This document shows positions 38,023 to 43,587 of a DNA stretch of 64,000 nt, piece by piece. The first letter of the stretch is position 1. Each line of letters begins with the position of its first letter. Where the stretch lies: assembly GCF_000470775.1 (NCBI RefSeq), contig NC_022438.1, forward strand, positions 2,170,001 to 2,234,000. Reading direction: 5' to 3'. The notes below the pieces were generated by a model. That model saw nothing but the letters and a program-made list of their open reading frames with translations. It ran no database searches and was not told where the DNA came from. Origin of the DNA: Leifsonia xyli subsp. cynodontis DSM 46306 (GTDB taxonomy: Bacteria; Actinomycetota; Actinomycetes; Actinomycetales; Microbacteriaceae). The position numbers were made by a program, and so were the translations under genes.

Positions 38023-38493
38023 TCATGGTGTGCCCGCCGGCCCGGCTCGAGCGGATGCGGAGGCCACGAGCCCGGCGTAACCCACCTGCACGGTGACAAC
38101 GGCGACCGCCTCGGTCACCGCACACGCGCTCACCACCGCGCCGTTCGCCCTCGCGATATTCCGGGCAACCTCACACGGTTCGCCCGGCAGCCGTCCGATG
38201 GCGATGTCCGCCGCCGCGAGCGCTGCCAGGTCCGCCGCGACGCCCGCCCGTCGTTGAGCCGCCAGCGCACCGCAGACCGCCATCACGAGCAGCCCGACCA
38301 CGACGACGACCGCCACGATCAGCACGGCAAGGACGGTGCCCGCTCCGCGATCTGAGGAGAGCGGGACAGCTACGCCACGCGCCGGCGACAAACCTGAACG
38401 CACACCACACCAAGCACGCGCACCACACCCCGAAGCCGCTGCCGTCTCCGCGCCACGACTCGCACGCTCACCGCTACCGGACACGAACCTCAT
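38023..38493 (-). CDS. TadE-like secretion-neighbourhood protein (Rv3654c type)
   Basis: A 156-residue protein in the last position of the tad cluster. It has a basic N-terminal part, then DRGAGTVLAVLIVAVVVVVG forming one membrane helix, and AALAAQRRAGVAADLAALAA, the signature of the helicase/secretion-neighbourhood TadE-like family. Unlike TadE it lacks the Glu five residues after the processing Gly. The ATG at 38493 is the likely start; a later start nearer the helix is possible because the first 55 residues are low in conservation. Probably a minor pseudopilin or assembly factor. Confidence 0.75.
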   Translation of the reverse strand: MRFVSGSGERASRGAETAAASGCGARAWCGVRSGLSPARGVAVPLSSDRGAGTVLAVLIVAVVVVVGLLVMAVCGALAAQRRAGVAADLAALAAADIAIGRLPGEPCEVARNIARANGAVVSACAVTEAVAVVTVQVGYAGLVASASARAGPAGTP

Positions 38494-38519
38494 GCGTGAG
38501 CCCGGTGTCACCGATGCCG

Positions 38520-38867
38520 TCACGGTCCCTCGACCGCCGACTCGTCCAGCGCGCACGCCCGGGCGCTCACAGCGAGCCCGAAGCTGCCGAGTCCGATCGC
38601 CGCGACCGGGGCGGACATCCGCACGCACACCATCCCTTTCTCCCTCTCGGTCGCGCTCGTCTGTCCACCCGGCGGATCGGGAGGAACATCCCCGCGCCCG
38701 AGCAGCCAGGCCATCACGGCGGCCCGATCGGTCAGCACCGCCTGCTGTGCCGCGGCCTGGACACCGGCGATGCACAGCCCGAGCCCGACGATGACGGCGG
38801 GGAGCGCGGCTGCGAACTCTGCGGCCACGCTGCCGCGCTCGGCGCTAACCGGCCACCGTGAGCGCAC
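38520..38867 (-). CDS. TadE family minor pseudopilin
   Basis: A 115-residue TadE-like protein from GTG 38867. The prepilin-type signal is visible: SAERG followed by SVAAEFAAALPAVIVGLGL, with Glu at +5 of the cleavage site and a single hydrophobic helix. The remainder is periplasm-equivalent. It overlaps the pilin gene upstream by 23 bp, and the TadE-like gene follows by 26 bp, so all are one transcript. Required for Flp pilus assembly in other systems. Confidence 0.8.
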   Translation of the reverse strand: MRSRWPVSAERGSVAAEFAAALPAVIVGLGLCIAGVQAAAQQAVLTDRAAVMAWLLGRGDVPPDPPGGQTSATEREKGMVCVRMSAPVAAIGLGSFGLAVSARACALDESAVEGP

Positions 38868-39102: not shown

Positions 39103-40026
39103 TCATCGGAGACCGGTCACTGTGGAGGAGACCATCGCGAGGATGACCGGTGCGACGCCAAGAACGAGAAACGCGGGGAGCACACAGACACCCAGCGGGA
39201 GCAACAGCCGCACAGCCAGCGTCGCCGCCCGCGCTCGTCCCTCGATGCGGGCGGAGCGCCGTTCCTGCCGAGACGCGGACGCCAGGAGATCGGCCACCGG
39301 CGCTCCCGCGCGTTCCGCGATACGGAGCACACGGTCGAGCACATGATCGTCGCCGGTGTCCAGCCCCGAACGCTCCCGCACCTCGCCGATGAGCCGTCGC
39401 GCACCCGGCACGGAGAGACCGCCCGCAAGGGCCGCGCCCATCAGGTCCAGTCCGACGCCGGCGACGGGGCCCCTCGTCGTCGCGGACCGGACCAACCGGG
39501 ACATCCAGGCCCGCCCCGCGAACGTCAGCCCGACACCGGCGACGAGGAGCCCCCAGCCGATCAGCGAACCGGTGAGCGCACCGAGGACGTCGATCCCGAG
39601 CCCGGCCGCCATGAGCAGCCCCACCAGGGGAAGGACCGTCATCAGCCGTGAGGTCGCCCGGGGACCGCTCAGTGCCGCTTCCACTTCACGCGCCGTCTCC
39701 GCGCGGTCGCGGAGCGAGGCTCCGGCGCCGCGCAACACGGGCGAGAGCACGGCTCCGGCGGCCTCGGCGACCTGCCAGGCTGCCGCGACCGTCCGAACGG
39801 CTGGGCCCGCCCGGACCGAGACGAGCACGAGCGCATCCCCCGGCCGCTCCCCCGCCGAGACCGCTCGCGCCACGCGGCCGATCGCGGGATGCGATGAGTC
39901 CTCCGCGAGATAGCCCCAAGCCGATTCCGGAGCCACCCCCGCCTCCAGCAGCACGCCCAGCGCCTCGACGGCCTCGGCGAGCGCGTCTTCCTCGAAACCG
40001 GGCCGCCTCCGGCCGCGCTCAGTCAT
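39103..40026 (-). CDS. Tad inner-membrane platform protein, apparent TadB-TadC fusion
   Basis: A 307-residue polytopic protein starting at ATG 40026 (MTERGRRRPGFEEDALAEAV), which overlaps the ATPase stop by eight bases. It has two GspF-like units. Residues about 10-180 (ALGVLLEAGVAPESAWGYLA, then helices LMTVLPLVGLLMAAGLGIDV) resemble TadB. Residues about 190-307 (GVGLDLMGAALAGGLSVPGA, final helices LLPLGVCVLPAFLVLGVAP) resemble TadC. Mycobacteria have these as two genes. No stop or frameshift is seen between the halves. It should anchor the ATPase to the membrane. Confidence 0.8.
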   Translation of the reverse strand: MTERGRRRPGFEEDALAEAVEALGVLLEAGVAPESAWGYLAEDSSHPAIGRVARAVSAGERPGDALVLVSVRAGPAVRTVAAAWQVAEAAGAVLSPVLRGAGASLRDRAETAREVEAALSGPRATSRLMTVLPLVGLLMAAGLGIDVLGALTGSLIGWGLLVAGVGLTFAGRAWMSRLVRSATTRGPVAGVGLDLMGAALAGGLSVPGARRLIGEVRERSGLDTGDDHVLDRVLRIAERAGAPVADLLASASRQERRSARIEGRARAATLAVRLLLPLGVCVLPAFLVLGVAPVILAMVSSTVTGLR

Positions 40027-41272
40027 CCCGCACCACCCGCAGACGGCCGTCGCCGCCGAGCGCGAGCCGGCCGAACCCCGCCACTCGGCGGCGCCCACCC
40101 GAGCGTTCGACGTGGACGATCATCCCGATAGCGCTGACCGCCTGACGCGCCACGGCTCGATCGTGCAGCCCCGCGAGCGCCCCGAGCGCCTCGAGCCGGG
40201 CCGGGACGTCCTCGATAGAGTTGGCATGCAGGGTGCCAGCTCCGCCGTCGTGTCCGGTGTTGAGCGCCGACAGGAGATCGCTGATCTCGGCGCCGCGGCA
40301 CTCCCCCAGGACGAGCCGGTCCGGTCGCATCCGGAGTGCCTCGCGGACGAGGCGGCGCAGGTCTACCCCACCCGCACCCTCCAGATTCGGCTGTCGCGCC
40401 TGAAGACCGACGACGTGCGGGTGCGGAATGCGGAGTTCGGCGACATCCTCGATCACGACGAGGCGTTCGGTGGGCGGCACGTGGGCGAGCATCGCCGCGA
40501 GGAGGGTCGTCTTCCCCGCGCCGCCAGCCCCCGTCACGAGGAGGTTGACCCTGCCTGCGACGGCGGCGAGCAGGATCGCACGCTGGGCGGCCGTGAGCGT
40601 TCCGCTCTCGACCAGATCCGGGATGCGCGGCTGCACGCGCGCGGGGATGCGGACGGAGAGCAGGGTGCCCTCGGTGGAGACGGGCGGCAGCACTGCGTGG
40701 ACGCGCACGCCGCCCGGGAGCCGGACGTCGATGAAAGGCGTCGCCTCGTCGATGTGCCGTCCGCCGTGCGCGATCAGGCGGACGGCGAGTCGTCTGACCG
40801 CGGTTTCCTCCGCGTTCCAGCCGTCCTGCCGTCGGAGGCCGCTGCGGGCGTCGTCCGTCCAGAGTTCGCCGGAACCGGTGACGAAGAGGTCGGTGATGCC
40901 CTCGCGCATGAGATAGAGGGTGAGCGGACCGTACGTGTACCAGAGGCCGGCCGGTGGCGGGGTCTGGAGACGGACCGATGAGGCGTCCGGACGCGGGGAG
41001 AGCACGGGCGGTTTCGACGCCACGCGGGACGAGACGGCCGCCAAGCCCCCTTCCGGGCTCCCGGCTAGCGTCGGTGTCTCCGGCGCAATCGCCGGCGACC
41101 CCCGCGATGCCGTCGCGTCATCCAGCGCAACATGAGCGGCCGGGAGCACCCGGCCGCCGCCCGGCGGCTCGTACCGTTCGGCCGGTCCTGCGGCAGCCTC
41201 CATCGCCCGGTGACGGGACGGCTCCCGTGGGCTCTCCCGCGGCTTCGCCCGCGCCCGTGTTCGTCTTCGCAT
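40019..41272 (-). CDS. tadA: Flp pilus assembly ATPase, TadA/CpaF family
   Basis: A secretion ATPase of up to 417 residues. Walker A is TGAGGAGKTTLLAAM, Walker B LVVIEDVAELRIPHPH, and the His box is GTLHANSIEDVPARLEALG, with MRPDRLVLGECRGAE between. The first 100 residues are Ala/Pro-rich and poorly conserved, so the real start may be downstream of the ATG at 41272. It powers pilus assembly. The septum-site protein gene (ssd) that precedes it in mycobacteria is absent; the region upstream instead contains the 6C RNA. Confidence 0.88.
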   Translation of the reverse strand: MRRRTRARAKPRESPREPSRHRAMEAAAGPAERYEPPGGGRVLPAAHVALDDATASRGSPAIAPETPTLAGSPEGGLAAVSSRVASKPPVLSPRPDASSVRLQTPPPAGLWYTYGPLTLYLMREGITDLFVTGSGELWTDDARSGLRRQDGWNAEETAVRRLAVRLIAHGGRHIDEATPFIDVRLPGGVRVHAVLPPVSTEGTLLSVRIPARVQPRIPDLVESGTLTAAQRAILLAAVAGRVNLLVTGAGGAGKTTLLAAMLAHVPPTERLVVIEDVAELRIPHPHVVGLQARQPNLEGAGGVDLRRLVREALRMRPDRLVLGECRGAEISDLLSALNTGHDGGAGTLHANSIEDVPARLEALGALAGLHDRAVARQAVSAIGMIVHVERSGGRRRVAGFGRLALGGDGRLRVVRDD

Positions 41273-41389
41273 CCCCTGACGCTACGGACATCCCGCGTCT
41301 GCGCGCCGGGGTCGCAGAATCCGTGGACAACTCGGCCGCGCCGCCGTGCTGTGGAGAACTCGATCGCGAACAGGAGACCCGTGTTAAAC

Positions 41390-41470
41390 AAAGGGGGGCC
41401 GCACCTATTGGGGGGAACAGGTGCGGCCACTGCGGCGCAGGATTGGGGGGAATCGTATTGCGCCGCACGC
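41390..41470 (-). ncRNA. 6C-type small RNA (twin C-loop hairpins)
   Basis: On the minus strand two perfect hairpins follow each other. The first is a 9-bp stem (41459-41467 with 41431-41439) whose loop contains ATTCCCCCCAAT. The second is a 10-bp stem (41419-41428 with 41397-41406) whose loop is GTTCCCCCCAAT. Two stems each displaying six C residues in the loop define the actinobacterial 6C RNA motif. Stem two is followed by CCCCCTTTGTTTAAC, which could act as terminator. In mycobacteria the 6C RNA (B11/ncRv13660) lies next to this same tad locus. It acts there by pairing its C-loops with G-rich mRNA sites. A promoter candidate is TTGCGT-16-TAGACT near 41525-41497. Confidence 0.9.
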
Positions 41471-41622
41471 CAGAATATTAACAATTCGGCCACGGACTAG
41501 TCTACGCAGAATCAATGCAAACGCAAGTCTGTTCGGGGTCCTCTTCTACAGGTTGTAGAGTCGGGCAGTATCGTGCCACGACTCATCCCATCCGGCATCG
41601 CAAAGGAGCGAACAGACTCGCC

Positions 41623-43587
<1,965 letters not shown>

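Follow-up and report, generated by a model that had tools for sequence, protein, structure and literature searches.

A probable 6C small RNA gene between tadA and acs in Leifsonia xyli subsp. cynodontis

Hairpins, promoter and terminator at the locus

The window, meaning the whole 64,000-nucleotide stretch of DNA analysed here, contains a set of tad pilus genes and a divergently oriented acs gene, separated by an intergenic region with two adjacent hairpins (Table 1). Each of them exposes six cytosines on the minus strand: loop 1, ATTCCCCCCAAT, has its Cs at 41445–41450, and loop 2, GTTCCCCCCAAT, at 41410–41415. These are the two near-identical loops from which the original prediction had proposed a 6C RNA, and both are present in the sequence at the place it quoted. 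A 6C RNA requires both hairpins, with about six Cs per loop, and the RNA of the window possesses both. The same prediction described the hairpins as perfect, which holds for the second one with its 13 pairs but is too strong for the first, because its 9 + 4 pairs are interrupted by a 4 × 1 internal loop. A third CCCCCC (41393–41398) spans the end of stem 2 and the terminator tail and does not form a loop.

Table 1. Features of the 6C locus and neighbouring genes in the window.
Feature	Position	Strand	Evidence
6C small RNA gene, predicted transcript of ~107 nt	41386..41492	-	R2 match 41386-41491; RF01066 match 41391-41467
-35 element TTGCGT	41521..41526	-	16-nt spacer to -10; AGACTTGCGTTTGCAT nearly invariant in 28 genus loci
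-10 element TAGACT	41499..41504	-	TA(A/G/C)ACT in 28 genus loci; TACACT common in family
5′ hairpin GCCGAAU..AUUC-U-GGC, beyond the Rfam model	41469..41490	-	Covariation; folding of family loci
Hairpin with C6 loop 1	41431..41467	-	RF01066 match; folding; covariation
Hairpin with C6 loop 2, terminator stem and likely main seed	41397..41428	-	RF01066 match; folding; terminator; covariation
Intrinsic terminator tail CCCCTTTGTTT	41386..41396	-	Sole terminator-like site in 41200-41700
tadA-family ATPase, codirectional with the RNA and downstream of it; actual start uncertain	40019..41272	-	TIGR03819, 394 bits over cut-off
T2SSF (TadB/TadC-like) protein	39103..40098	-	PF00482, two stretches
Rv3654c-family TadE-like protein	38023..38775	-	TIGR03816 over cut-off
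acs, acetate--CoA ligase, divergent from the RNA	41623..43587	+	TIGR02188 over cut-off

The fold of 41380–41480 is far more stable than expected (z = -6.0; none of 200 shuffles equally stable). Runs of CCCCCC/GGGGGG are strongly depleted in the window: dinucleotide shuffles predict about 63 on the two strands together, whereas 11 were counted, including an overlapping pair, and three of the 11 fall at this locus.

The predicted promoter, TTGCGT-16-TAGACT, lies about 8 nt ahead of the 5′ hairpin, within a block at 41499–41530 whose pattern, AGACTTGCGTTTGCAT.GATT..GCGTA.ACT, is nearly invariant over the 28 loci of the genus. Across the family, TTGCG (at least 4 of 5 positions) followed at the proper distance by TANNNT occurs in 42 of 65 loci, 32 of them perfect, compared with 0.7 expected from composition shuffles, the pattern having been picked after the loci had been looked at; it was not found in the other 23. 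The ends of the predicted transcript follow from this promoter, with +1 placed 7 nt past the -10 element, and from the T-tract. The only terminator-like structure around the locus is the second hairpin itself. The consensus folds at -40.6 kcal/mol versus -32.9 for its reverse complement, and its cells contain 46 G-U versus 2 A-C oppositions out of 696. The conserved promoter, the terminator and the G-U pairs thus all support the minus strand, as originally proposed.

Pairing is also conserved through covariation. In the sequence-based alignment A2, 20 of 30 pairs changed on both sides, a number matched by none of 500 shuffles, and 94.5% of cells pair versus 31–48% with the partners slid. The alignment A3, which was fitted to the structure and so leans towards it, gives 29 of 30 pairs and 95.3% versus 38–48%.

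A third hairpin, located 5′ of the Rfam domain, shares this behaviour: five of its six pairs changed on both sides in A2 (76% of cells paired), and all six in the model-fitted A3 (85%). The best hairpin at this place exceeds the mean stability of its own shuffles in 30 of 30 family loci (-8.0 vs -4.2 kcal/mol), and it is more stable than stretches 40–70 nt further upstream in 22–25 of the 30; taken locus by locus, 16 of 30 beat 95% of 60 shuffles. Outside the family, it is clear in all 13 loci of genus g96 (family f9), each with a TATAGT box ahead of it, and in locus L132; in the remaining six f9 loci it is seen by eye but falls below the 5% line, bringing the total passing to 14 of 30 loci. 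The gene is therefore larger than the interval first assigned to it, 41390–41470, which covers both C-loop hairpins but lacks the third covarying hairpin and the promoter; with these and the terminator tail, it measures about 107 nt.

Two genomes (G366 and G268, the latter carrying L132) possess a hairpin GCGGU-UGCACCCCCCGUG-ACCGC just 5′ of the Rfam 6C match, with a third C6 in its loop; 10% and 0% of shuffles, respectively, are equally stable. This lineage may have a 6C RNA with three C-loops.

Concerning regulation by DNA damage, no clear PafBC-type promoter is visible by eye here. In eight loci of the family, an inverted repeat TGTCC..N..GGACA was noticed by eye at a similar distance upstream of the 6C -35 element, and it was not seen at the window's copy; it could possibly be a regulator site. 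The 6C RNA of Corynebacterium glutamicum is reported to rise about two-fold with mitomycin C (PMC6789036).

Detection and spread of the RNA

A covariance search with the Rfam 6C family (RF01066), suggested along with the original prediction, yields a match covering all 75 model positions with 41.4 bits and an E-value of 2.6e-4 (321-base search). The lack of a covariance hit, part of what would have refuted the prediction, was thus not seen. The score is short of the gathering score of 47 bits, which explains why the default Rfam scan of the window returns three tRNAs only. The genome holds no other plausible copy, and the two runners-up, at 18.0 and 17.9 bits with E > 7, were rejected as noise. 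Within 150 genomes of the same family, 98 have an RF01066 match at E ≤ 1 and only 5 reach the cut-off. Since the shortfall is common to the family while gene order shows orthology, we read the low score as a limit of the Rfam model and not of the RNA. Anyone treating the cut-off as defining should name the window's RNA a divergent 6C.

We therefore used purpose-built covariance models, whose E-values are rough owing to short calibration. R1 includes the 5′ hairpin and derives from the window's copy and the 29 best-scoring family loci, 30 in all, one of which was excluded as odd, leaving 29 sequences. R2 is a family-level model built without the window's copy, because R1 contains it. Against the 64-kb window, R2 gives 93.8 bits (E 1.9e-19) as the sole match up to E 10. 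Together with the full-length RF01066 match, this supports the 6C identity claimed at the outset, though under Rfam's curated cut-off.

With R1 at E ≤ 1, all 28 genus genomes are positive, two that the Rfam scan had missed among them, and none has an E-value above 5e-18; of the 150 family genomes, 122 have a match at E ≤ 0.01. Nearly all positive genomes have a single strong match; one (G075) also has a weak second match. Outside the family, R1 proved too narrow (16 of 246 genomes at E ≤ 0.1), and RF01066 itself finds the RNA in 134 of 242 genomes of the class at E ≤ 0.01, 97 of them above cut-off. Three further matches in the family (25–32 bits), with tad and acs genes absent from the stretches compared, were treated as noise.

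In 28 of 150 family genomes no R1 match was found, and thus the RNA is dispensable in some lineages. All 20 re-examined genomes of this group have a TadA-family match, some of these perhaps paralogues. Three of them carry hairpins with C4–C7 loops upstream of tadA that resemble an altered 6C; in the others, a crude scan of about 900 nt upstream of the TadA match found no such hairpin, the stretch being too short in one genome. In twelve loci from small or divergent family genomes, the RNA is still beside tadA with one or both loops smaller or changed (C5, C4, UUUCCCCAAAU, ACCCCUAAC), and some genomes show none.

Gene order and competing readings

From 152 loci, 70 were scored with R1, and removing the three weak matches and two duplicates leaves 65. 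A codirectional tadA lies downstream in 60 of the 65, or in 60 of 68 if the weak matches are retained, as dropping them partly for missing tad and acs genes is circular. In the five loci without tadA, two stretches break off after 150–265 nt, and the other three extend for about 1.5 kb and contain no tadA. In most relatives the tadA match starts between residues 100 and 126. None of the 150 family genomes has ssd (TIGR03815) over cut-off, 47 of them having weaker, ParA-like matches; ssd was therefore probably lost in the family, which would have left the RNA adjacent to tadA. On the other side, acs is upstream and divergent in 59 of 65 loci, and in the window it starts about 130 nt from the RNA. 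Four of the six loci without acs have RidA and PBP genes in its place, as though acs had dropped out of the interval. A block near GTCGTGGCGCGACAATGCCTGACTCTACAAC, strongly conserved in the 28 genus loci on the acs side (41552–41582 in the window, whose copy is a variant), is probably an acs promoter or operator.

The association extends to the class. We selected 20 regions, none longer than 20 kb, out of the 134 genomes with a match. All 20 have a tadA gene no more than 10 kb away, which is codirectional and downstream in 19; acs is within reach in 11. The 2007 description of 6C reportedly already noted partitioning and pilus genes nearby, and the mycobacterial cluster Rv3654c–Rv3660c is the tad-like one. 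The conserved synteny with tad genes, for which mycobacteria had been invoked, is borne out and reaches further than was claimed. It looks like an old gene order and not like evidence that the RNA controls those genes.

We consider it most probable, at roughly 0.85, that the feature is the 6C small RNA gene of this bacterium, orthologous to mycobacterial B11 and acting in trans on leaders with G-runs. The proposed orthology rests on sequence, structure and gene order; transcription, pairing and repression would be as described for mycobacteria. A housekeeping-type promoter would produce an RNA of about 107 nt starting at about 41492, predicted to fold into the short 5′ hairpin and the two hairpins displaying CCCCCC. 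The second hairpin and its tail would terminate transcription, and the C-loops would base-pair in trans with runs of G located at ribosome-binding sites or close to them, lowering translation. Silencing of messages with G-runs near the start is thus the most likely role.

An extended version of this proposal, which we regard as unlikely, gives the family a form of its own, in which both loops have almost become fixed as UUCCCCCCAA, the 5′ hairpin covaries, and the RNA stands directly ahead of tadA after the loss of ssd. The small RNA and the tad operon would then share one promoter through read-through, combining action in trans on G-run leaders with an effect in cis on pilus expression. In this version, the shrinkage of a loop to C4–C5 in several divergent lineages, some with small genomes, would look as though the seed and the target set drifted together.

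A purely cis-acting leader, with the hairpins attenuating the tad operon from its 5′ UTR and pilus expression set by incomplete termination, is quite unlikely. Rfam does file 6C as Cis-reg, the RNA precedes tadA codirectionally in most family loci, and, with no ssd over cut-off, tadA is the next known gene there. However, the RNA and the tadA match are separated by anything between 33 and 1359 nt, and in the class regions tadA is usually 1–1.7 kb away. In the two class regions checked for ssd, one (L365) has ssd over the TIGR03815 cut-off between the RNA and tadA, with a HAD-IB hydrolase gene upstream, and the other (L376) has a shorter ssd-like frame with a match below cut-off; in a third region (G228), the tad genes lie on the other flank of the RNA and run in reverse orientation. 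Moreover, the C-loops belong to the most conserved parts, and an attenuator would not need them, and the mycobacterial RNA is reported as a free 93-nt small RNA (PMC12395582).

It is very unlikely that the site has no RNA function and is just a terminator, or an element acting at the DNA level between the two divergent genes, such as a buffer or a regulator's site for acs. This reading would account for the strong terminator-like hairpin, the closeness of the acs start and the conserved block on the acs side, but no minus-strand gene upstream needs a terminator, because acs runs away from the site, and it leaves unexplained the two near-identical C6 loops, the third covarying hairpin and the strand-specific G-U pairs. 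A chance look-alike non-homologous to 6C, to which only the score below the gathering threshold would point, can in our view be practically discarded given the full-length RF01066 match, the R2 match and a tad neighbourhood that the family shares with 6C RNAs scoring over the cut-off in other members of the class.

Candidate targets and relation to known 6C RNAs

Under the small RNA reading, G-runs are expected near start codons. In the 28 genus genomes, GGGGGG-N2-12-ATG occurs 1533 times versus 935 for the reversed control (1.64-fold), with an excess in 27 of 28. This fits the 6C mechanism, yet it is modest and inseparable from ordinary Shine-Dalgarno purines. The genome-wide search for such sites proposed with the original prediction thus delivered an excess of about 1.6-fold but no validated target. 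From 66 sites listed in the window's genome, 64 were extracted (two overlapping ones merged), and 25 pass a crude coding filter that spurious or internal frames pass too. A Pfam scan of ten downstream frames identified PMT, DEAD helicase, ABC transporter, zf-HC2, aldo/keto reductase, SAICAR synthetase and AICARFT families; a NIPA-like match was below its cut-off and two frames had no family. The best-looking candidate, the purC leader with G7, was rejected as unconserved: G6 is present in one of 28 genus genomes and G5 in one, and in most relatives purC apparently starts, judged by eye, at an upstream GTG. Within the window, no G6 run outside the RNA is at a convincing start, two lying just ahead of 77- and 85-codon frames. 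No specific target of the window's 6C RNA was found.

It had also been suggested that the RNA could affect either flanking gene. Pairing with acs or tadA is unsupported, since the plus strand on the acs leader side (41468–41640) has no G-run longer than 4, and the runs on the tadA side are neither enriched nor kept. In the window, the minus strand from the RNA to the conserved TadA core contains two GGGGG (starts 41103 and 41050), and so does that of one sibling genome (G174). Of 28 genus loci, 7 have a run of at least G5 in this interval, where shuffles predict 11.1, and of 25 family loci 8 do, where 14.0 would be expected; four further family loci were left out because their stretches have no TadA core. 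G6 occurs in none of these 28 and 25 loci.

The features described here can be compared with characterized RNAs. Relative to RF01066, the window's RNA shares the two hairpins, the six Cs in each loop and the tail over all 75 positions; it differs in scoring 41.4 instead of 47 bits, in having UUCCCCCCAA in both loops, in other stem sequences and in the added 5′ hairpin. In 13 mycobacteria-like loci with a TATAGT -10 box, the 5′ hairpin is the same as in the window. B11 is a mycobacterial small RNA from the Rv3660–Rv3661 intergenic region, and structure probing in Mycobacterium marinum gave three stem-loops (PMC12395582); the 6C RNA of M. mucogenicum was folded with three helices, P1–P3 (PMC6582537). 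The window's RNA likewise has three stem-loops, two of them C-rich and the third being the terminator, whereas M. marinum B11 has 6 and 9 Cs in place of 6 and 6 (PMC12395582). The neighbourhood differs from that of the B11 group as represented by L365, where ssd separates the RNA from tadA; the window has no ssd there and has acs directly upstream. The C. glutamicum 6C (cgb_03605) resembles the window's RNA in its pair of C-loops and in extending 27 nt further 5′ than the Rfam model, but each of its loops has eight Cs (PMC4046766). Because three stem-loops or helices and a 5′ extension are already published for 6C/B11 RNAs, the 5′ hairpin is not new and is merely outside the Rfam model.

In M. 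marinum, the seed was demonstrated in the terminator loop, whose Cs pair with G-tracts close to start sites; alterations in loop 2 had no effect, and compensatory changes partly restored repression (PMC12395582). In M. abscessus, reporter swaps indicate that either C-loop suffices (PMC10470900). By analogy, either loop of the window's RNA could serve as the seed, since both are UUCCCCCCAA.

The locus thus represents a known kind of small RNA in a new place, and the original prediction correctly identified the RNA together with its family, strand and conserved neighbours. Our literature search found no report of a 6C RNA in Microbacteriaceae, Leifsonia or Clavibacter; paywalled work lay outside this search, and earlier reports are possible. 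What is corrected is the extent of the 6C gene and the manner of its detection with Rfam: the cut-off hides 6C in nearly all sampled members of the family, and a three-hairpin model recovers it. A well-studied mycobacterial small RNA is hereby extended to a family with plant-associated bacteria. The deep association with tad genes, combined with losses in some lineages, means that this RNA can serve to study what keeps a trans-acting small RNA next to the same pilus genes.
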